A DNA stretch of 64,000 bases from the NCBI GenBank assembly GCA_025963725.1, contig JAOQAE010000004.1, positions 62,001-126,000 on the forward strand, written 5' to 3'. The DNA is from Bacteroidota bacterium (GTDB lineage Bacteria > Bacteroidota > Bacteroidia > 2-12-FULL-35-15). Positions 34,996-49,282 of this stretch are shown piece after piece (within the stretch, counting starts at the first letter, position 1; each line of letters begins with the position of its first letter). The notes beneath the pieces are model-generated. The model did not search any database. It saw only the letters and a list, made by a program, of their open reading frames with translations, and was not told the DNA's origin. The position numbers were made by a program, and so were the translations under genes.

Positions 34996-36552
34996 CTAAT
35001 TTATTTTTACGGTTACCGGGCTTAGCTGCACCTGCACTCCGTCAGGCCCTACCGCCTGAATATCTTCAAACATGATCCTTGAATTTTTTCTTAACAGATG
35101 AATTTGTTCCTTCATTTTTGCTGTAAGCATGTTGTTTGGCGATTCCAGCTCAATAATTCCGCTTGGGGTAAAAACGATCATTTTAAACGATTTTACTTTG
35201 GAAATAATATTAAACTCAAAGTTGTCATATTGTGCAATGATGCCTGCCTGTGTTTCTGCTTTGCTTTTAGACATTACGCCTGTGTCGGTAATATCTCCGA
35301 ATTTTGCTTTTGGCTTTGGAATGTTCTTTACCCGGAAGCTCATCGTGCCCATACTTTTCTTTTCGCCGTTATCCATCATGGCATACACATTTACGTCTAC
35401 CGTATTTCCGCCGGATGCATTGATAATATATTTTCCACCGCCGGTTGCCTTCAATGTTGCGTTTGTTGCCGATACGCTCAGTTTTTCATTCGGTATCCCG
35501 GGAACAGAAACTGATATTGGGTTATCGAGCTTGCGGTAAAGTACGTTCATCGCATCTGCGGAAACCGTCAATGAAGGTCTCGCTACAATGTATTGCGATT
35601 TGAAAGGGAACACCGATTCCTTGCCTTTGGCAGAAGTGATCCTGATCATGCCTTCATAATCAACAATTCCTTCCTTATCAGCTTTTACAGTGTATTTCCC
35701 TAAGCCGTTCTTCACATCCAGCTTTATATTTTCCCCGATCGTGATCTCGGGCTTTTTTGTTTTGCTGAATGCTGCGATAAAAACGTCGGCCTTGTATTCG
35801 TCGCCCAGCAATACATAATTGCTCTGCGGAACAACCTTGGCTGCAACGGTATCAAATTTCATCACTTCACCGTCCGTCTGCTTCAGCAAATAATCCACCA
35901 CCAGCGATTCCGAATTCTTCACATCGTTCTTCAGCTTCGAAAGAATGGTAAGGCATGCAACCAGCGGCCTGTCATAGAAATTGTACAATTCCCAGTTCTC
36001 TTCACTCGTTGTCGGGTCATCTGTGTTGATGTCGACTTTTACGGTTTTTCTGTCGGCAGGCTGGATGTAGCCGGTGAGTTGCTCCCTGTACCGGATCAGC
36101 TTGTTCTTCAGCTCTCGCGATGCGCCTTTGGAGCCATCTTCCGAATCGCCGATCATAATGTTGGTTGGAATATCATATTTATCCTTGTTCTCGATGTTCT
36201 GCATCTGCAGCGTATCGGCAACGGATTTCTCCACCTTTTCCGTTTCCGTGATCATTTGCTTTTGCAGCTCATCGATGTAGGCAACCAGCTGTTCCGACTC
36301 CTTTTTCGCATCCTGCGCTTTTTTCCAGTTGGGTGTTACCAGCACCGGATCCACGGTTTTGGCGAGGTCGAATTCCGCATATAGCTTTTCATTCCGTTCC
36401 GAAAAATTGAGGTTGGAGTTTTCCAGTCCTTTGTTAACGATCACAAATGCATCTAAAATGTCTTTTGAAACATTGAGTGCAAGCAGTGCTGTGAGTACAA
36501 GGTACATCATGCCGATCATTTTCTGCCTTGGGGATTCCTTTGCTGAGGCCAT
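34996..36552 (-). CDS. gldM: Gliding motility / T9SS core protein GldM
   Basis: A 518-residue inner-membrane protein, the length expected for GldM/PorM. The N-terminus MASAKESPRQ and the single transmembrane helix (about 12-30, MMYLVLTALLALNVS) are diagnostic. Four periplasmic domains follow, matching the known D1-D4 layout, with the conserved end FEDIQAVGPDGVQVQLSPVTV. GldM and GldL form the proton-driven motor of the T9SS. Here gldM stands alone: no gldK, gldL or gldN flanks it. It may therefore be a second copy or a lineage-specific split of the cluster. It provides the export motor for the T9SS cargo in this window. Confidence 0.93.
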   Translation of the reverse strand: MASAKESPRQKMIGMMYLVLTALLALNVSKDILDAFVIVNKGLENSNLNFSERNEKLYAEFDLAKTVDPVLVTPNWKKAQDAKKESEQLVAYIDELQKQMITETEKVEKSVADTLQMQNIENKDKYDIPTNIMIGDSEDGSKGASRELKNKLIRYREQLTGYIQPADRKTVKVDINTDDPTTSEENWELYNFYDRPLVACLTILSKLKNDVKNSESLVVDYLLKQTDGEVMKFDTVAAKVVPQSNYVLLGDEYKADVFIAAFSKTKKPEITIGENIKLDVKNGLGKYTVKADKEGIVDYEGMIRITSAKGKESVFPFKSQYIVARPSLTVSADAMNVLYRKLDNPISVSVPGIPNEKLSVSATNATLKATGGGKYIINASGGNTVDVNVYAMMDNGEKKSMGTMSFRVKNIPKPKAKFGDITDTGVMSKSKAETQAGIIAQYDNFEFNIISKVKSFKMIVFTPSGIIELESPNNMLTAKMKEQIHLLRKNSRIMFEDIQAVGPDGVQVQLSPVTVKIN

Positions 36553-36644
36553 AGTAATTAGTGTTTAGAGGATGAATGAACAATTGCTTGTGAACCGGTT
36601 TCGTCCTCATAATGCAGCCCGAGAAAAAAAGATACAGGGGAAAT

Positions 36645-36678
36645 AAAAAAGCACCCTTCTTTTCGGAAGAGTGCTTTT
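36645..36678 (-). terminator. Hairpin upstream of gldM, likely terminator of the PP2C gene
   Basis: AAAAGCACCCTTC and GAAGAGTGCTTTT form a stem with one mismatch and a TTTTTTATTT tail on the minus strand. It lies about 215 bp past the PP2C stop and 93 bp before gldM, so it could also act as an attenuator for gldM. Confidence 0.65.
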
Positions 36679-36817
36679 AATTAAAGGAGTAGCTAACGTA
36701 TTACAGGGATGTCCCTGCAATGCTGCCGTAAGTGTTCTGTGATTTCATCTGCGTTTTGTTTTTAATGATCGTTTGTGGAATGTGTTGCACAAATGTCATG
36801 AAACAAGGCAGGCAGTA

Positions 36818-36864
36818 CAATCCCCTTCGCAGGGTATATTGACATCCGTACTGGTACGTAGATG
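36818..36864. promoter_or_regulatory. 47-bp bipartite motif, copy 1 (upstream of gldM)
   Basis: The sequence has a left block CAATCCCC...AGGGTAT and a right palindrome CGTAC-TG-GTACG. It aligns without gaps with 46581-46627, 37 of 47 bases identical, including a 15-base identical core. The minus-strand gene downstream is gldM. The function is unknown; a regulator binding site or small structured RNA are the main options. Confidence 0.55.
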
Positions 36865-36891: not shown

Positions 36892-39800
36892 TCAGGAACG
36901 GATGCGCACACCGATGAGGCAGATATCATCCACCTGCTCGTGTTCGCCTTTCCAGTCGTTCAGCGCTTTCCGCAGAATGTTCTCCTGCTCCTTCATCGTT
37001 AAGTGGCTGATGGAGACAAGCAGCTCTTTCAGTTGACGGTACATGAATTTTTTTCCTTTCGGCCCGCCGAACTGATCGGGCATTCCGTCGGTAAGCGTGT
37101 AAACAATATCGTTGCTCATCAGCTGAAAAACATGTTCGCTGAAGGAAACGGTATCATTGTCGTGCTTGCCCACCGGCATTTTATCCGGCGCAAACTCTAT
37201 GATCTCTTTGTTACGGACGATCCATACCGGGTTGTTAGCAGCTGCAAAGCGGATTTCCTTTTTCGCTTTGTCAAAGCATACGATGCTGCAGTCCATGCCA
37301 TCCTTGCCGCCATCGGCGCTGCCGTCGTTCGAAAGGTGGCCGATGATCTTCCTCCGCGTATAGTTCAGGATCTCATGCGGCGCAGTAAGCCCCTTTCCGT
37401 TCACGGCTTCATTGAGGCAGGAGATGTTCAGCATGCTCATGATGGCGCCGGGAACACCATGCCCGGTGCTGTCGGCGGTTACAAATGCGAAGCTGCCGTT
37501 GCTTAACGGGGAGGCCCAGTAAAAATCGCCGCTTACAATATCCTTCGGCTGGAAGAAAATAAAATAATCATCGAGGTAGCTGTCGAGCAGCTTATTGCTT
37601 GCCAGCAGCGAACGCTGAATGCGCTGCGCATAGTTGATGCTGTCGGTAATGTCCTTGTTCTTGCTTTCAACGATCTGCTTCTGGTGCTCGATCTCTTCCT
37701 TTTGCTTCACCACTTCCGCGGTGCGTTCCTTCACTGTTTTTTCCAGCTGTGTTTTCGCGGCTTTCAGCCGCCTGATGCTCAGCTGAACCATCAGGTAAAT
37801 AAAAAGTATGAAGGCGATCACGTAAGCGATGTATGCCCAGATGGTTCGGTACCAGGGCGGAAGGATCGTAAATGAATAGCTGGATTCGATGCTTTCCGTT
37901 CCGTAAATGTTTTTTGCCTTTACACGGAATGTATAATTGCCTTCCTTTAAGTTAGTGTATTCCTTCAGGCTTGTATGGTCCCATCCCGACCAGTCGGTAT
38001 CATATCCTTCAAGAAAAATAGTGAACACATTGCTTTGCTCATCACCGAAAGTGGTGGCAGTATATTCAAAGCGCAGGGAGTGGAATGAATAGCCGATCGT
38101 TGGAATGAGCTGTTCCGGCTGCGAAAGCACGGGAACATGCATGCTGTCTTTTGTAATGAAAAAGCTGCCGCCGAACAGGAGCGAATCTTTTCCGATGCTC
38201 ACAGTGCGGATATGCGTGTAAAAGGGCTGCGAGAAATCTTTCCGGATTCCCGCATCGTAGCGTAAAAGTCCGTCAGGCCCGCCCAGCCATGTGATCCCGT
38301 TATTGTCGGGAAAAATCGCGTGGATTTCGCTTTCACGGATCTTGCCGAAGGGCTTCGAATACCAGGAGTAGGAATGATCGGGCTGAAGGCTTGCAATGCC
38401 TGTTTCTTTCGGGCCATCGGTATACAGCCATACGGTTGAATCGCCTTTTGGCACAAAGCGGTATACCTGCCGCTGTTGTAATTCCTTTTTTAAGAACGAA
38501 GAGGGAATAAAGCGGTCCGCTTTCTCATCAAATTCATAGACACCGTTATACGTAGCAAAAACTATCCGCCCCAGGAAGCAATAAGGAATGTTGTATTGCA
38601 TTTCCGGCAGGCCGCTCGTTGTATCGTAATCCCGGATGGTGTAATGCCGCTGCCATGCAGTAACAAGGCTGTCGGAGGGATTGCTTGTGCTGTTAAAGCT
38701 CACCTTTACAATTCCGTCGAAGGGCGTGCCCAGCCAGAGGTCTCCGTTTGCGTCTTCTGCAATGCTTCTTATTTCTTTGTCCACTCCATGAATGCGCTCT
38801 TCATTGACCCACTTCCCGTTTTGGCAGCGTATCGAAGAAAGCCCATCGCCCGTCCCGATATAAACCCGGCGCGGATCAGCCATTGACTGGTAAAGGATAT
38901 AGCCCGACTCATCTGCAAGAAGCGTGCAGGCTGCACCATTGATCTTAAAGATGCCCGCTTCGGACGAGGCCAGCAGAAAGCTGTCCCTGTCGTCATAAAA
39001 GGGAAGCAATGACCACGTTTGCGCCCCGATACCTTTGATCGGCTGCAGCTTGTTTTTGTCCGTGGACCCGGCAGTAGAAAATACGCCGAGTGATGTTGCA
39101 ATGTAGATCGAGCCTTTGATTTTTGCAATGTCCTCGACAGAGCCTTTCAGTCCCTGCACATCATTAACAAATGCAAGGGGCGACGATGTTTCAATTCTTG
39201 AAATGCCGTTCCCCAAAGCAAGCCACAGGTCATGCTGGTTGTCTTCACTCACGAACTTCACGATGTCGTCCTGGAGGCCGGTACCTTTATTGAAAACCTG
39301 GAGCACCCGCCCGGCCTCATCCGTAATGATGGCGCCGTTCTTTAGAGTTGCAAAGGCAAAATGCTTGTTGTGCAGCGCCACACCGCCATACACCTGGTCA
39401 TTGATCAGGAAACTGTTTGCTTCAGCATCCATGCTTTTGATGGAAGGGCTGTTCCCTGAGAGGTCAATAAGCACGAGCCCTTTTTCACGTGTGGCTGCAA
39501 GGATCCTGTTTGCGGGATAAGGAAGCATGCTGTAAATCCGCAGCCCGGCAAAGAAATCCCCTCCTGCAACGAGTGTTAGCTCATCATTAATAATATGCTT
39601 CAGCCCTTTTTCCCTTTCATTGATGTACAGCTCATTGTTTATATAAAAGCTGAAATGAAAGGAGGTCTCAGGTTTCCATATTTTAAGGGAATTGCCGTTG
39701 ATGCGGATGAGCTTTGTGAATGTCTGAAAATAAATTCCCTGTGGCGTTACGTATGTTTTCCATACATCGGCAAAATCACGTTCGCCGGCAGGCAGCCTGT

Positions 39801-40194
39801 TCAGCAGGGAGTGATAGGCCATGAGCCCGCTTGCGTTTGGAGCGAGATAGCCAAATTCGCCTACTGCCCCTACGTAAATGATCCCGTTGTCGGCAATGGA
39901 CAGGGAACGCACCAGCGAATTGTTGGAAACAGGGATCAGCCGCCACTTGCTTCCATCATACTCAAGTATTCCGCTGGCATTCCCAAAATACATAATGCCG
40001 CGCCGGTCCTGCGCAACAGCCCAGCTGTCGGAGGAGGCATCATATTCATTGGGAGTGTAATTCCGGACAAAAGGAATGCCTTCCGGTTTTTGTGAAAAAG
40101 TAAAAACAGGAAAAAGGAAGAGAAAACAGAAAACAACAAGAGCTGTTTTATGAATGGGTTTCAAAGCAGCAGGATTAAAATAAAAGCCAGGCAT
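36892..40194 (-). CDS. Second propeller/Y_Y_Y sensor fused to SpoIIE-type PP2C phosphatase
   Basis: A 1100-residue protein starting at ATG 40194; frames further upstream run into the terminator of the preceding gene. A signal or anchor segment (about 10-35) leads to a periplasmic propeller (about 50-690). The blade motifs are less regular than in the protein at 7394-10696. A Y_Y_Y domain (about 700-790), a transmembrane helix (near 800-820), a coiled coil and a SpoIIE PP2C domain follow. PP2C motifs GDFYWAS (near 887), DSTGHGVPGAIMS, DGMDCSIV and LTDGMPDQFGG are present. It is a paralogue of the 7394-10696 protein, with identical length and order. It probably dephosphorylates a partner-switch protein in response to a periplasmic ligand. 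Confidence 0.9.
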   Translation of the reverse strand: MPGFYFNPAALKPIHKTALVVFCFLFLFPVFTFSQKPEGIPFVRNYTPNEYDASSDSWAVAQDRRGIMYFGNASGILEYDGSKWRLIPVSNNSLVRSLSIADNGIIYVGAVGEFGYLAPNASGLMAYHSLLNRLPAGERDFADVWKTYVTPQGIYFQTFTKLIRINGNSLKIWKPETSFHFSFYINNELYINEREKGLKHIINDELTLVAGGDFFAGLRIYSMLPYPANRILAATREKGLVLIDLSGNSPSIKSMDAEANSFLINDQVYGGVALHNKHFAFATLKNGAIITDEAGRVLQVFNKGTGLQDDIVKFVSEDNQHDLWLALGNGISRIETSSPLAFVNDVQGLKGSVEDIAKIKGSIYIATSLGVFSTAGSTDKNKLQPIKGIGAQTWSLLPFYDDRDSFLLASSEAGIFKINGAACTLLADESGYILYQSMADPRRVYIGTGDGLSSIRCQNGKWVNEERIHGVDKEIRSIAEDANGDLWLGTPFDGIVKVSFNSTSNPSDSLVTAWQRHYTIRDYDTTSGLPEMQYNIPYCFLGRIVFATYNGVYEFDEKADRFIPSSFLKKELQQRQVYRFVPKGDSTVWLYTDGPKETGIASLQPDHSYSWYSKPFGKIRESEIHAIFPDNNGITWLGGPDGLLRYDAGIRKDFSQPFYTHIRTVSIGKDSLLFGGSFFITKDSMHVPVLSQPEQLIPTIGYSFHSLRFEYTATTFGDEQSNVFTIFLEGYDTDWSGWDHTSLKEYTNLKEGNYTFRVKAKNIYGTESIESSYSFTILPPWYRTIWAYIAYVIAFILFIYLMVQLSIRRLKAAKTQLEKTVKERTAEVVKQKEEIEHQKQIVESKNKDITDSINYAQRIQRSLLASNKLLDSYLDDYFIFFQPKDIVSGDFYWASPLSNGSFAFVTADSTGHGVPGAIMSMLNISCLNEAVNGKGLTAPHEILNYTRRKIIGHLSNDGSADGGKDGMDCSIVCFDKAKKEIRFAAANNPVWIVRNKEIIEFAPDKMPVGKHDNDTVSFSEHVFQLMSNDIVYTLTDGMPDQFGGPKGKKFMYRQLKELLVSISHLTMKEQENILRKALNDWKGEHEQVDDICLIGVRIRS

Positions 40195-40200
40195 ATCAAA

Positions 40201-40208
40201 CAAAAATA
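40201..40208 (-). promoter_or_regulatory. -7 element immediately before the propeller-PP2C gene
   Basis: TATTTTTG on the minus strand lies 6 bp before the ATG at 40194. As with priA and arfB, the spacing would give an almost leaderless transcript. Confidence 0.4.
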
Positions 40209-40213
40209 ACATA

Positions 40214-40252
40214 ATAAAAACAAAACCCATGAGATTTGTCCCATGGGTTTTG
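40214..40252 (-). terminator. Intrinsic terminator of the giant repeat protein gene
   Basis: On the minus strand CAAAACCCATG (40252-40242) pairs with CATGGGTTTTG (40231-40221), followed by a T-rich run. It lies about 20 bp past the stop at 40274 and covers the upstream ATG candidates of the next gene. Confidence 0.88.
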
Positions 40253-45001: not shown

Positions 45002-46456
45002 TTATCTTACTCCGCGGCCGCCCTGGTTGTAGCTGCGTGTTGTTACTGCGGAAGTAGCGCTTGCCCTGTCGGAGGTGCGTACATAAACTGCAGTGTTCAC
45101 ATAATCGCCGCCCCTGAAGCCGCTGCCTGTAGCTGTAACTGGTGAAGGCCATGTAGCCTGGTTCGCTTCGCCATTGACATCCAGTGTTCCGTCGCCGGCA
45201 ACGCCTGTATAGGCAACGCCTGCAGCATTACCTGTGGTAACGGTTCTTTCCCAGAGGTTTCCGCCCATTTCCATAACGCCATAATATGTTGCGCCTGCAG
45301 ATGCCCTTCCGGAGCTACCTGTTGCAAAAATACCTGCTCTCAGCGGGCCGTAAACAGCGCTTGCCGTTCCTACCCCATAGCTGCACATACCATTGGATGC
45401 TGGTGTATACGCTTCTGTTGCCGTAAGTAATCCGGACATGCCTCCAAGTGTATTGTATACCTGGGTGATGGCTGTGCTTCCCCAAGGGTACTCCCCTGCA
45501 ACGCGTGCCACGGGGCCTCTGCAAACTTTTTCAAATTCCATTTCCGACATCGGGCGAAGCGCCGACCAGTCGAGGTAAGCGATCACATCGGCCCAGTTTA
45601 AATAATTCACAGGGATGTTCTGTCCGTCATTCGCATTGTTCTCAACACCCGGGGTTGCATCGCATGCATATACTGCAGGCAAAGCGCTGTTGTTACCCGG
45701 TACCGAAATACGGATCCCGTTCCTTTGTCCGTTTGCAAATGCATACGTTCCTGCCGCGCTGATCGGATCGTTGATCGTTCTCGATTTCTGCTGGTCATAG
45801 GTAAGTGCATTCAGAAATTCCACGTATTGTTCCTGCGTGATCTCGTACTTCATGCAGTAGAGTGAATTGTATCCCATCGGGAAAGTTGCCGGAACCGCAA
45901 CAGATGAGCCGCCAAGCGCGGCAGCTGTAAGTCCGCCCGATTGTGATGTTGCAGTGATGCTGATGCTGTTATAAGTGGAAGCGCTTGTTCCGTCGCCGAT
46001 ATCGAAGTTGCCCTGCGGCACGTTCACCATTTCTATCCCGAACACCTTGTAGTTGTACGTTCCTGCAGGAATGGTCATTTTTAAGGTAACCGAGGTGCTT
46101 CCGATGTTTCCTCCGCCCAATGCGCTTCTTCTTACGAATACGCCTTTGCCGTCGGTAACGGGGTCAACCTGTAAAGGCGCTGCCGCTGTATGGTCCGATG
46201 CGATATTGCTCAGGCCTGCATGCGCCCATAAGCGCGTAGCACAATCCTGGTACTTCACAAACACCCATACGGCATCCCAGTTGTTGGGAGCAAGGTTGGT
46301 GTTCCAGCTGTTGTCCCAGCTGATGTTAAATGTGATGTTCGAGCCCGAAACAGATGTTCCGGTGATGGCCACATTGTTCGCATTAGATACTGAAGCGAGG
46401 CCAAACATCAGGGATGCTGCCACAGCAATTTTTTTCAGGAGTCCGTTTGTTTTCAT
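45002..46456 (-). CDS. Exported SUMF1/FGE-sulfatase-fold protein, probably non-catalytic
   Basis: A 484-residue protein with a signal peptide (cleaved near SVSNA). A beta-rich N-terminal domain (about 25-180, ISWDNSWNT, WDAVWVFVKYQD) precedes a formylglycine-generating-enzyme-like domain (about 180-484: YCMKYEITQEQYVEFLNAL, PVNYLNWADVIAYLDWSALRP, MELGG-like MEMGGNLWERTV). In true FGEs the segment after RGG carries the active cysteines; here it reads RGGDYVNTAVYVRTSDR with none. It is therefore more likely a binding or structural member of the fold. It lies just upstream of the giant T9SS protein gene on the same strand and may be coexpressed with it. Confidence 0.82.
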   Translation of the reverse strand: MKTNGLLKKIAVAASLMFGLASVSNANNVAITGTSVSGSNITFNISWDNSWNTNLAPNNWDAVWVFVKYQDCATRLWAHAGLSNIASDHTAAAPLQVDPVTDGKGVFVRRSALGGGNIGSTSVTLKMTIPAGTYNYKVFGIEMVNVPQGNFDIGDGTSASTYNSISITATSQSGGLTAAALGGSSVAVPATFPMGYNSLYCMKYEITQEQYVEFLNALTYDQQKSRTINDPISAAGTYAFANGQRNGIRISVPGNNSALPAVYACDATPGVENNANDGQNIPVNYLNWADVIAYLDWSALRPMSEMEFEKVCRGPVARVAGEYPWGSTAITQVYNTLGGMSGLLTATEAYTPASNGMCSYGVGTASAVYGPLRAGIFATGSSGRASAGATYYGVMEMGGNLWERTVTTGNAAGVAYTGVAGDGTLDVNGEANQATWPSPVTATGSGFRGGDYVNTAVYVRTSDRASATSAVTTRSYNQGGRGVR

Positions 46457-46580
46457 GGATGCGTTATTAATGATTAATGGTTTATTTTTTGGGTTAATAG
46501 TTTGCTCATCCGCTTAGGCGAATTGTGGAATTCACCTTTACTGAATGAGCATCAAAAATCATTTAAAAAAATGGGGGAGG

Positions 46581-46627
46581 CAATCCCTGCCGGAGGGTAT
46601 TTTCATATCCGTACTGGTACGGAGGCG
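46581..46627. promoter_or_regulatory. 47-bp bipartite motif, copy 2 (upstream of the SUMF1-like gene)
   Basis: The left block CCCT-GCCGG-AGGG and the right palindrome CCGTAC-TG-GTACGG make two adjacent dyads. It aligns with 36818-36864 over 47 bases without gaps. It lies 21-67 bp past the stop of the LuxR-type regulator gene and 125 bp before the SUMF1-like gene. Confidence 0.55.
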
Positions 46628-46648: not shown

Positions 46649-47290
46649 CTAATCGCCGATCAGCTTGTTCTCAATGGCAAATTTCATAAGTCCTACCACG
46701 GTTTTTGTATTGGCTTTGCGGAAAATATTCTTACGGTGGGTTTCAACGGTGCGCTCGCTGATGAACAGGGCTTCACCGATCTGGGCATTGCTGTATTCTT
46801 TGGCAATTAAATTAATGATCTCCTTTTCCCTTTCGGTGAGATGCACCTTTTCTTCCTTCTGGCCTCGTTCGCTCAGGGCTTTCATCATTTCGGCAGAGAT
46901 CTCATCGCTGAAGAACATGCCGCCGGCAGAGATCTTCAGGAGCGCATTGATCAGCTCTTCCTTCCCGGTGTTTTTCAGGATGTAACCCGAAGCGCCTGCA
47001 TCGAGGATCTCGGAGATCGTGCTTTTTTCCCCGAACATGGAGAGCGCAAGCACCTTCACTTCGGGATGGGCCTTTTTCACTTCCCTTGTAAAAGCGATCC
47101 CGTCCATTTCCGGCATGTTGATGTCACTCAGCACCACATCGGGCGTATTCTTCCCGATCTGCTCCAGCGCCGCCTTTGCAGTGTTGGCAGTTCCGCAGAT
47201 CTCGAATTCCTTCTCGTTGATAAGCAGCGCCTTCAATCCATCGATCAGCATCTGGTGGTCATCCAGGATAAATACTTTTATTTTTGCCAT
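46649..47290 (-). CDS. LuxR/NarL-family response regulator
   Basis: A 213-residue protein with a receiver domain (acidic D10/D11, phospho-acceptor D56 in VLSDINMPEMDG, K106 in SGYILKNTGK). The C-terminal LuxR-type helix-turn-helix (about 149-213) reads LTEREKEIINLIAKEYSNAQ, then ISERTVETHRKNIF. It is the partner of the histidine kinase encoded 36 bp upstream. One copy of the 47-bp motif lies right after its stop codon, which makes this regulator a candidate for binding it; that is an inference. Confidence 0.94.
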   Translation of the reverse strand: MAKIKVFILDDHQMLIDGLKALLINEKEFEICGTANTAKAALEQIGKNTPDVVLSDINMPEMDGIAFTREVKKAHPEVKVLALSMFGEKSTISEILDAGASGYILKNTGKEELINALLKISAGGMFFSDEISAEMMKALSERGQKEEKVHLTEREKEIINLIAKEYSNAQIGEALFISERTVETHRKNIFRKANTKTVVGLMKFAIENKLIGD

Positions 47291-47326: not shown

Positions 47327-49282
47327 TCAGGCTGTATCGTTTGTTTTCAGGGGCACCTCGATGCTGATGGTGGTGCCTTTTCCGGGCGATGAATCAACGT
47401 TCACAGTGCCGTTGAGGAACTCGATCCTCGAGCGGATGTTCTTCAGGCCGATACCGGAAGAGGCCAGCGCGGGATCGAATCCGCGGCCATTGTCTTCTAT
47501 GATCATGCTGAGCTCTTTTTCGTAGCGCACGATCTGGATGTTCACCACCGAGGCGCCCGAATGCTTTATAATGTTGTTCACCGTTTCCTGCACCACGCGG
47601 AACAGGATGTTTTCCATCATGCTCTCGAGCCGCTCGTTGAGTCCGCTGATCTCCAGCTCGATCTTTAATTTGCCGGTGGTGCTGATCTTGTTCAGGAACT
47701 CCCGCACTGCCGTTGCCAGCCCCGATTTTAAAAGGGCATTCGGCATCATGCTGTGGGAAACCGACCTTACTTCCTTCACCGAATCGTCGATGATCTCGAT
47801 GGCATTCTTCATCAGCACCGATTGCTCTGCAGTGCCGCTGCCGAGGGTCGACTGCAGGCTGCTCAGGTTTAGTTTTACCGCCGAAAGCTGCTGCCCGATG
47901 CCGTCATGGAGCTCCCGGGCAATGCGCGTGCGCTCGTTCTCTTCCGCTTCCACGATAGCTTTTGTGCGCAGGATCTGCTGTTCGCTGCGTTCTGCCTGTA
48001 AAATATTTTTCTGCTTTAATTTATGGCGGTTGTACAGCAGGAAGATAAAAATGGCAAGGATGAGCAACGAGATGAACAGGATGTTGCGCAGCGTTTTCTG
48101 CTGAAAAAGCTCGAGCCTGTTCCGCTCAAGCTCTATGCTTTGTTTCCCGAGGGCAAGGTCTTTTTTTTCGGTTTCGTACTTCGCCTGCATTTCTGCGATC
48201 TGCTTGTTTGTTTCGGTGTTCAGGATCGAATCCTTAAGGCTGCCCAGCAAGCCCTGGTAATAAAAGGCCTGCTCAAAATCCTTCCTGCTTTTATTCAGCT
48301 CCACCAGCGATTCGTAAATGTCTTTTACAAGCCCCCTGCTGCCGGTCTTCCTCGCAAGTGGCAGCGCTTTCATCTGGTAGTCCATCGCTGTTTTGTAAAT
48401 GCCAAACAGATTGTAAATGTTTCCCAGGTTGTTGTAGCTCATGGCAATGCCGCGCTTATCCTGCAAATATTCCCGCATCTCCAGCGCCTTGAGCTGATAT
48501 TCAAGGGCTGTTGCCAGGTCGCCCACACCCGAATACACATTTGAGATGTTATTATAGCTCAATGCTATGCCGATCGTATCTTTCACTTCTATCTTCAGCT
48601 CGAGCGCTTTGGTTGCATTTTTTAGCGCCTCGCTGTAATTCTTTTGCTCGTAATAAATAATGCCCATGTTATCGTAGCTGTCGGCCATCTCCTGCTTGTT
48701 TTGCAGCTTTTCGCGGATGGCAAGGCTCTTTCTGTTATAGTCGAGCGCTTTCTCATAATTTTTCTGGTACCTGTAAATGATCGCGATGTTGTTCATGCTG
48801 GTGGCAACCAGCCTTGGCTTGTTCAGCTTTTCCAGCATGGCCAGCGATTCCAGGTAATATGATAATGCTAAAGGATATTCCCCGAGCAGCCTGTGGATCT
48901 CCCCGATATTGTTGTTCACTTTCGCGATGCTTAATGAATCCCTGCGTGCTGCCGCCACGCTGAGCGCTTTTTTATAATTAGCCAGCGCATCGGCGTAATT
49001 CCCTTTCGAGCGGGAAGCCGCACCCAGCAGGTTATAGGCCCATGCAATGCCTTTCGGATAGGAAAGGCTTTCAGAGAGACTCAGCAGCTCGTTCGCATAC
49101 TTTTCTTTTGTTACAGGCTCATCCTGCCGCACTGCCAGGTCGTACAGGAGGTTCACTTTCTGGGTATCTGCCGCTGCTGTTTTCAGGGCGGCCTGCAGGC
49201 TGTCGGTAGTGGATTGCGCCTTGCCTTTCATGCAGCAGACGAGGCAGAGCAGCAGCAATGCTGTTTTGATGGTTGAGGTCAT
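47327..49282 (-). CDS. TPR-containing sensor histidine kinase (HisKA_3 type)
   Basis: A 651-residue protein with a signal peptide (to about residue 22) and six or seven periplasmic TPRs (about 45-330, for example GNYADALANYKKALSVAAA). One transmembrane helix (about 398-416) and a coiled coil lead to a NarL-partner kinase core. The phospho-acceptor lies in ARELHDGIGQQLSAVKLNL (His near 459), and a HATPase domain follows (NIIKHSGA, DNGRGFDPA, GIGLKNIRSRIEFLNG). It phosphorylates the LuxR-type regulator encoded downstream. Its ATG overlaps the end of the amidase gene by 4 bp, so amidase, kinase and regulator form one operon. Confidence 0.94.
   Translation of the reverse strand: MTSTIKTALLLLCLVCCMKGKAQSTTDSLQAALKTAAADTQKVNLLYDLAVRQDEPVTKEKYANELLSLSESLSYPKGIAWAYNLLGAASRSKGNYADALANYKKALSVAAARRDSLSIAKVNNNIGEIHRLLGEYPLALSYYLESLAMLEKLNKPRLVATSMNNIAIIYRYQKNYEKALDYNRKSLAIREKLQNKQEMADSYDNMGIIYYEQKNYSEALKNATKALELKIEVKDTIGIALSYNNISNVYSGVGDLATALEYQLKALEMREYLQDKRGIAMSYNNLGNIYNLFGIYKTAMDYQMKALPLARKTGSRGLVKDIYESLVELNKSRKDFEQAFYYQGLLGSLKDSILNTETNKQIAEMQAKYETEKKDLALGKQSIELERNRLELFQQKTLRNILFISLLILAIFIFLLYNRHKLKQKNILQAERSEQQILRTKAIVEAEENERTRIARELHDGIGQQLSAVKLNLSSLQSTLGSGTAEQSVLMKNAIEIIDDSVKEVRSVSHSMMPNALLKSGLATAVREFLNKISTTGKLKIELEISGLNERLESMMENILFRVVQETVNNIIKHSGASVVNIQIVRYEKELSMIIEDNGRGFDPALASSGIGLKNIRSRIEFLNGTVNVDSSPGKGTTISIEVPLKTNDTA

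Follow-up and report, generated by a model that had tools for sequence, protein, structure and literature searches.

Peptide signalling through TPR proteins of the RRNPP type is a system of the Firmicutes, and the recognition heptamer of NarL is TACYYMT, which the arms of the element described here match in part. According to the portion of PMC7419079 used here, the E. coli ogt promoter carries two NarL 7-2-7 sites in tandem, one of which abuts the -35 box, and activation is possible from NarL sites at -44.5, -67.5 and -77.5. For the Bacteroidota, the excerpted text of PMC7366714 gives a primary promoter consensus with TTTG at -33 and TAnnTTTG at -7, and the same excerpt states that Flavobacterium johnsoniae yielded no -33 motif. 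We describe here a repeated element that combines features of both kinds, located in a 64,000-nucleotide stretch of a Bacteroidota genome (the whole stretch that was analysed, hereafter the window).

A sequence-only reading of the window had pointed out that positions 36818-36864 (copy 1) and 46581-46627 (copy 2) align without gaps with 37 of 47 identities and a 15-base identical run, which our realignment reproduced. It was also correct in placing both copies in the same orientation, each immediately after a signalling gene's stop codon; each copy sits between minus-strand genes. The next-best 47-mer match of copy 1 in the window reaches 26 identities on the plus strand and 25 on the minus strand. 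For 300 random 47-mers of the window, the best non-self match averages 26.7, but ten reach at least 33 and one reaches 39, so matches of the kind that links copies 1 and 2 are rare but not unique. At the scale of the whole genome the match is nonetheless above chance, since a blastn search with copy 1 recovered copy 2 at E = 2.2e-5. With at most one mismatch, CGTACYRGTACG is found twice in the window, in copies 1 and 2, versus 0.14 expected.

Read on the minus strand, each copy presents CGTAC-NN-GTACG, ten bases, TACCCT..GGGA, TTG, 20 bases and GAnnTTTG (Table 1). The proximal box, TACC-N8-GGnA, abuts the -33 TTG, and its centre is 24 bp from that of the distal palindrome. Judging from the sequence, each copy is probably an activator-dependent, tandem NarL-type operator-promoter used by a TPR-kinase/LuxR pair. 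We propose that the TPR sensor kinase phosphorylates the adjoining LuxR-type response regulator, which would then bind both dyads as dimers and recruit RNA polymerase, thus activating rather than repressing. Assuming a start about 4 bases past the -7 element, the dyad centres would fall at about -66 (distal) and -42 (proximal). Copy 2 would drive the SUMF1-like gene, probably together with the cargo and SpoIIE genes that come next. Copy 1 would drive a transcript of about 140 nt encoding MKSQNTYGSIAGTSL and ending at the terminator, with at most read-through into gldM.

Table 1. Positions in the window of the two element copies and of the genes and signals around them.
Feature	Position	Strand	Sequence or remark
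Stand-alone second gldM/porM	34996..36552	-	
Intrinsic terminator	36647..36678	-	between micropeptide frame and gldM
Micropeptide frame	36701..36748	-	MKSQNTYGSIAGTSL*; 15 codons, 41 nt after -7 element
Copy 1, -7 element	36790..36797	-	GACATTTG; 20 bp after TTG
Copy 1, TTG of -33 element	36818..36820	-	
Copy 1, proximal box	36821..36836	-	TACCCTGCGAAGGGGA; candidate proximal operator site, 24 bp centre-to-centre from distal
Copy 1, distal palindrome	36847..36858	-	CGTACCAGTACG; candidate distal operator site
Reg_prop/Y_Y_Y/SpoIIE signalling protein	36892..40230	-	after cargo gene
T9SS cargo, 1565 aa	40274..44971	-	C-terminal sorting domain; 30 bp after SUMF1-like gene
SUMF1-like protein, probably exported	45002..46456	-	first gene after copy 2
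Copy 2, -7 element	46553..46560	-	GATTTTTG
Copy 2, TTG of -33 element	46581..46583	-	
Copy 2, proximal box	46584..46599	-	TACCCTCCGGCAGGGA
Copy 2, distal palindrome	46610..46621	-	CGTACCAGTACG
LuxR/NarL-type response regulator	46649..47290	-	GerE domain; proposed binder of element
Sensor kinase	47327..49282	-	TPR region, hydrophobic segment 395-420, HisKA_3, HATPase_c

Twelve genomes of the genus, the source genome (G000) among them, together yield 23 copies that preserve the layout from the palindrome to the -7 box. Selection of these copies required the distal site and TACC, weaker model matches being left out, and TACC is part of the alignment anchor, so that its constancy among them is no test. 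The palindrome is separated from TACC by 10 bases in 21 of the 23 copies and by 9 in the two others (G028b and G004). Counted from TACC, NAnnTTT is at offset 39 or 38 in 19 copies, and TTG at offset 16 in 13. The -33 TTG and the -7 element are thus found at a fixed spacing, as in a Bacteroidota primary promoter. This regularity has its exceptions: NAnnTTT is missing at its expected place in four copies, among them the one on contig C6 of the source genome, and the proximal box is degenerate in several (G005, G014a, G004 and G000_C7). In several copies the -7 element starts with G, and others read TAnnTTTG. The promoter part was not merely selected for, because blastn matches lying outside the -7 box identified six of the first ten copies, and four of these six still carry NAnnTTTG at the fixed place.

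The conserved unit therefore runs on to the -7 promoter element, and while the repeat itself stands, the 47 bp initially assigned to it fall short of its extent. Likewise, of the two halves of the bipartite structure first proposed, the palindrome holds across copies. The CCC/AGGG inverted repeat is a local feature, seen in 4 of the 23 copies, all from two genomes (G000 and G018), and was rejected as a recognition unit. TACC is kept across copies and ACGGATTG less strictly; the positions that follow TACC vary among the 23 anchored copies. The window copies fit 7-2-7 arms in part, the distal site having 5-bp arms and the proximal 16-bp box an imperfect right arm.

The gene directly upstream of copy 2, beside the TPR kinase gene, encodes a LuxR-type regulator whose profile matches include VraR (4e-47) and NarL (1a04, 4.2e-42). 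Orthologues of this regulator (at least 65% identity) are present in 12 of the 36 genomes of the genus, luxR paralogues of 45-50% identity in G012, G022 and G027 not being counted, and at the orthologue loci the element stands after luxR. Searches were made with a sequence-only model built from ten copies, a full copy being a match at E ≤ 1e-4 that starts at or before model position 15; partial matches without the distal site (e.g. G001 and G015) were not counted as such. Full copies were found in 11 of the 12 genomes with a LuxR orthologue versus none of the 24 without (Fisher p = 2e-8, relatedness ignored), and in 5 of 6 versus 0 of 24 once the six model-training genomes were set aside (p = 4e-5, relatedness again ignored). 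In the twelfth LuxR genome, G004, the element is present after luxR and scored E = 0.0012. In the genus, the element is thus kept in 11 members besides the source, though not in the other 24, and stands beside, or in a genome with, a NarL/FixJ-type regulator gene, as expected of a NarL-type operator. A lack of conservation in close relatives had been named as grounds for refutation, and a regulator operator was one of the options then considered: this option is now well supported, and the LuxR-type regulator named at the time is the best candidate to bind it.

Copies that adjoin luxR cannot on their own separate a promoter from a luxR 3' element, because in G026 the element follows a luxR remnant; only unlinked copies can make this distinction. 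Such copies, distant from luxR, exist, for example on C6 and C7 of the source genome, and others follow a SpoIIE gene or sit elsewhere in the genome. A luxR 3' element or terminator was rejected on this ground, and the promoter reading is preferred because the element also occurs unlinked, keeps its spacing and co-occurs with luxR. The G026 copy was not counted among the unlinked ones, since a luxR 3'-end remnant directly precedes it. At this locus (L069, 1880-3291), the luxR gene is intact and the remnant lies 1.4 kb further on, as if an insertion or a duplication had occurred there.

The proximal box can be followed well beyond the genus. In the best 80 named LuxR loci, the 150 bp that follow luxR contain TACC-N8-GGTA 16 times, spread over 15 loci, versus 0.73 expected from a background that mixes coding and non-coding DNA; spacers of 6, 7, 9 and 10 occur 0-1 times each. 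The sole enriched spacing thus gives a dyad of 16 bp, the size of the 7-2-7 architecture, and does so class-wide. The dyad is present in 12 of 41 luxR-adjacent gene-upstream regions versus 2 of 137 such regions taken from arbitrary stretches of class genomes (338 kb of contig starts from 20 genomes taken nearly in handle order, not at random), and the two arbitrary matches are the two strands of one divergent region. A fairer comparison is made within the same loci, where the dyad is found in 12 of 41 regions after luxR versus 22 of 254 other regions (p = 6e-4). The 22 other regions show that genes other than the one adjoining luxR can have the proximal box too.

The box and the promoter also travel together: TACC-N8-GGTATTG-N18-21-TAnnTTTG is matched in 123 of 395 class genomes versus 8 of 395 with a spacer of 28-31, and the reversed pattern in 3 of the same genomes. 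Among 30 loci returned by the box-promoter pattern, which are not a random draw, nine have a LuxR-type gene, and six of these nine are one gene family in one genus. In L213, L219, L220, L222, L223 and L224, a LuxR-type family with the C-terminal sequence VRENLVSP lies directly upstream of TACC-N8-GGTATTG promoters. A further set of loci (L047, L050, L052, L217 and L218) carries, behind single-dyad promoters, a conserved frame of about 50 residues that ends in a cysteine- and lysine-rich stretch, e.g. KKCCKKFKTDKRCKKCPANS. Outside the genus, the model of the whole element matches 14 of the 395 sampled class genomes at E ≤ 0.001 (20 matched genomes minus six of the genus), and 4 of these 14 matches start after model position 15 and so are without the distal site. 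A LuxR-type gene lies beside the match in four of the 14 (G250, G093, G328 and G409), with a relative of the TPR kinase in three.

Could the element belong to another regulator, or to an ECF sigma factor acting through GGATTG and GAnnTTTG, the linkage to luxR reflecting neighbourhood only? The assignment to LuxR rests on sequence, with binding predicted, the -7 element begins with G rather than T in several copies, and the dyad also precedes other genes of the luxR loci, those 22 of 254 regions. Moreover, in the parts of PMC4800418 drawn on here, T9SS genes of Porphyromonas gingivalis are under the ECF factor SigP. We nevertheless consider this explanation unlikely: within the genus, no full copy, linked or unlinked, was found in a genome that does not have a LuxR orthologue, some copies read TAnnTTTG, and the 16-bp dyad follows luxR genes class-wide. 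In addition, different palindromes (read by eye) follow two of the three diverged luxR paralogues, those of G012 and G022, although inspection of the G027 locus found no palindrome after the stop codon. After the G022 paralogue (L094), ATCAGTAC-type palindromes are repeated past the stop codon and perhaps represent a different operator type.

In the source genome, the genes that follow the element and that the LuxR-type regulator would control are the SUMF1-like gene, trailed by the cargo and SpoIIE genes, and the micropeptide frame, trailed by gldM; the two remaining copies have cargo genes. The third copy lies between two T9SS cargo genes, and the fourth, on C7, upstream of a gene for an RCC1-repeat protein with a T9SS sorting domain. 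The latter reading frame (L065, 4571-5964) is split into two overlapping frames, through either a real disruption or a sequencing error. T9SS cargo are numerous in this genome, with at least 150 sorting-domain matches, so that cargo enrichment among the targets is modest at most. In 7 of the 23 copies, the next large gene encodes a protein of about 235-248 residues with, in our own reading, the look of an outer-membrane barrel; one such protein was checked, and its Pfam matches were below the curated cut-off.

The gldM gene near copy 1 is one of two full gldM genes in the genome, the other (C6:137093-138673) being in a gldK-L-M-N cluster named partly from a reading of the neighbouring genes. 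The window gene had been taken as the gene downstream of copy 1, but it is probably not the first target, because the micropeptide frame and the intrinsic terminator come before it. Frames related to this micropeptide follow the element in G018 (MKTQNTYGSIAGTSL), G009 (METQIRNTYGSIAGTSL) and G028 (MINEINYYGSIAGTSL) and, in two other families, in G076 (MKNNFSFGSISGTSL) and G078 (MIIIDSNYGDIAGSNI); their conserved end is YGSIAGTSL. In the window and 268 loci, 14 short frames end in a loose version of the micropeptide pattern, and those with a palindrome and box upstream are exactly the six family members, a clean split that is descriptive, the pattern having been written after the family was seen. 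In the eight other LuxR genomes of the 12, no micropeptide frame was found in the stretches fetched. A single match from a viral collection lies within a longer frame, and we take it as chance.

Over the last nine codons of the four genus copies, six third positions vary and no first or second position does, which argues for selection on the peptide rather than on the RNA; when G076 is included, the variation is purely synonymous in seven codons and alters the amino acid in two. Strong terminator hairpins follow the frame in G000, G018 and G009, a hairpin and a T run in G076, and weak folds in G028 and G078. The TPR kinase and the micropeptide share one locus in G000, G018 and G009. The G078 stretch has a SpoIIE-type gene, a LuxR gene and, 8 kb away, the C-terminal part of a kinase cut by the stretch end; no kinase frame was called beside luxR in G028, and the G076 contig ends too early to show one.

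It is tempting to speculate that the micropeptide is a linear signal controlled by LuxR and sensed by the TPR domain of the kinase, which would close a positive feedback loop acting on T9SS cargo and an extra GldM, but we regard this as doubtful. A hydrophobic segment near 395-420 separates the TPR and kinase parts in all five kinases examined, and from the sequence the TPR part may face the periplasm. The kinase N-terminus looks signal-like by eye, while a hydropathy cut flags two of the five kinases, the one in the window not among them. As for the micropeptides (15-17 residues), the frames, read by eye, show no hydrophobic stretch or export signal. The micropeptide may be a ligand of the kinase, an internal feedback regulator, or something else.

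The order of promoter, 15-codon frame, terminator and gldM, found in the window and in G018, also brings to mind an attenuator, in which the short frame would be a leader peptide whose translation decides termination ahead of gldM. This is quite improbable, given that the same micropeptide precedes other genes elsewhere, namely those for a 166-aa protein (G009) and a SUMF1-like protein (G028) and unrelated genes in G076 and G078. Moreover, a candidate -7 element, TATCTTTT, stands, on inspection by eye, directly after the terminator in the window (36627-36634, minus strand) and also in G018; it may be gldM's own promoter element.

A small structured RNA, another of the options initially listed, or a riboswitch, is very improbable. 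The palindrome could form a hairpin, and the region 36553-36786 folds better than its shuffles (z = -2.97), the terminator alone accounting for -17.1 of the -48.8 kcal/mol. Against this, the element has no Rfam match at E ≤ 5, the four predicted pairs show no compensatory change in 10 sequences, and the palindrome lies upstream of the -7 element and should therefore be outside the transcript. That the element is a dispersed or mobile repeat is scarcely credible, although several copies are near-identical and both window copies lie in the same orientation just past stop codons: the whole-genome count proposed as a check gave 4 copies in 4.79 Mb, not hundreds (all at E ≤ 2e-8, the next match, at E = 0.115, being partial; such searches score the best of many first-look candidates, here 150 of 1813, and several genomes are incomplete), the similarity is concentrated in the operator and promoter columns, and the position before genes is kept across genomes.

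The NarL-type operator-promoter that we propose would make readable the cis-regulatory code used by a group of Bacteroidota regulators whose operator did not come up in the open literature searched; no such operator or micropeptide is described among the matches listed there. It would link a two-component system to proteins exported by the T9SS, and possibly to a second gldM. It also brings to light a micropeptide gene, found in three bacterial families, whose shortness puts it out of reach of ordinary annotation, and with this gene peptide signalling in Bacteroidota becomes a directly testable question. If the signal reading were true, it would reveal peptide communication through a TPR receptor in Bacteroidota, in parallel to the RRNPP systems of the Firmicutes.

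How far does this resemblance to known systems go? Like RRNPP systems, the locus combines a TPR-domain protein with a gene for a short linear peptide, and the system itself appears to control this gene. It differs in that the TPR region precedes the hydrophobic segment of a kinase, on a membrane side that is inferred, rather than being a cytoplasmic receptor, and in that the peptide is without an export signal, unlike an exported pro-peptide, its interaction with the kinase being hypothetical. The PorXY-SigP pathway of P. gingivalis is similar in that, as the cited part of PMC4800418 has it, a two-component system is tied to T9SS genes. However, PorX carries a PglZ domain, is without a helix-turn-helix and works through SigP, whereas the regulator here has a GerE DNA-binding domain, and the motif differs. 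With the Bacteroidota primary promoter the element shares TTG-N20-NAnnTTTG, and departs from it by a -7 element that often begins with G and by fixed upstream dyads. Compared with the NarL sites of ogt, it has a Bacteroidota -33/-7 core, 24 bp between centres versus 33 there, CGTAC arms in the distal site and a kinase that contains TPRs. Yet the regulator is related, its profile matching NarL (1a04) and VraR, and the organization is that of the ogt promoter as the excerpted account of it goes: two successive inverted repeats, one of them adjoining the -35/-33 element, ahead of a promoter that is activated.
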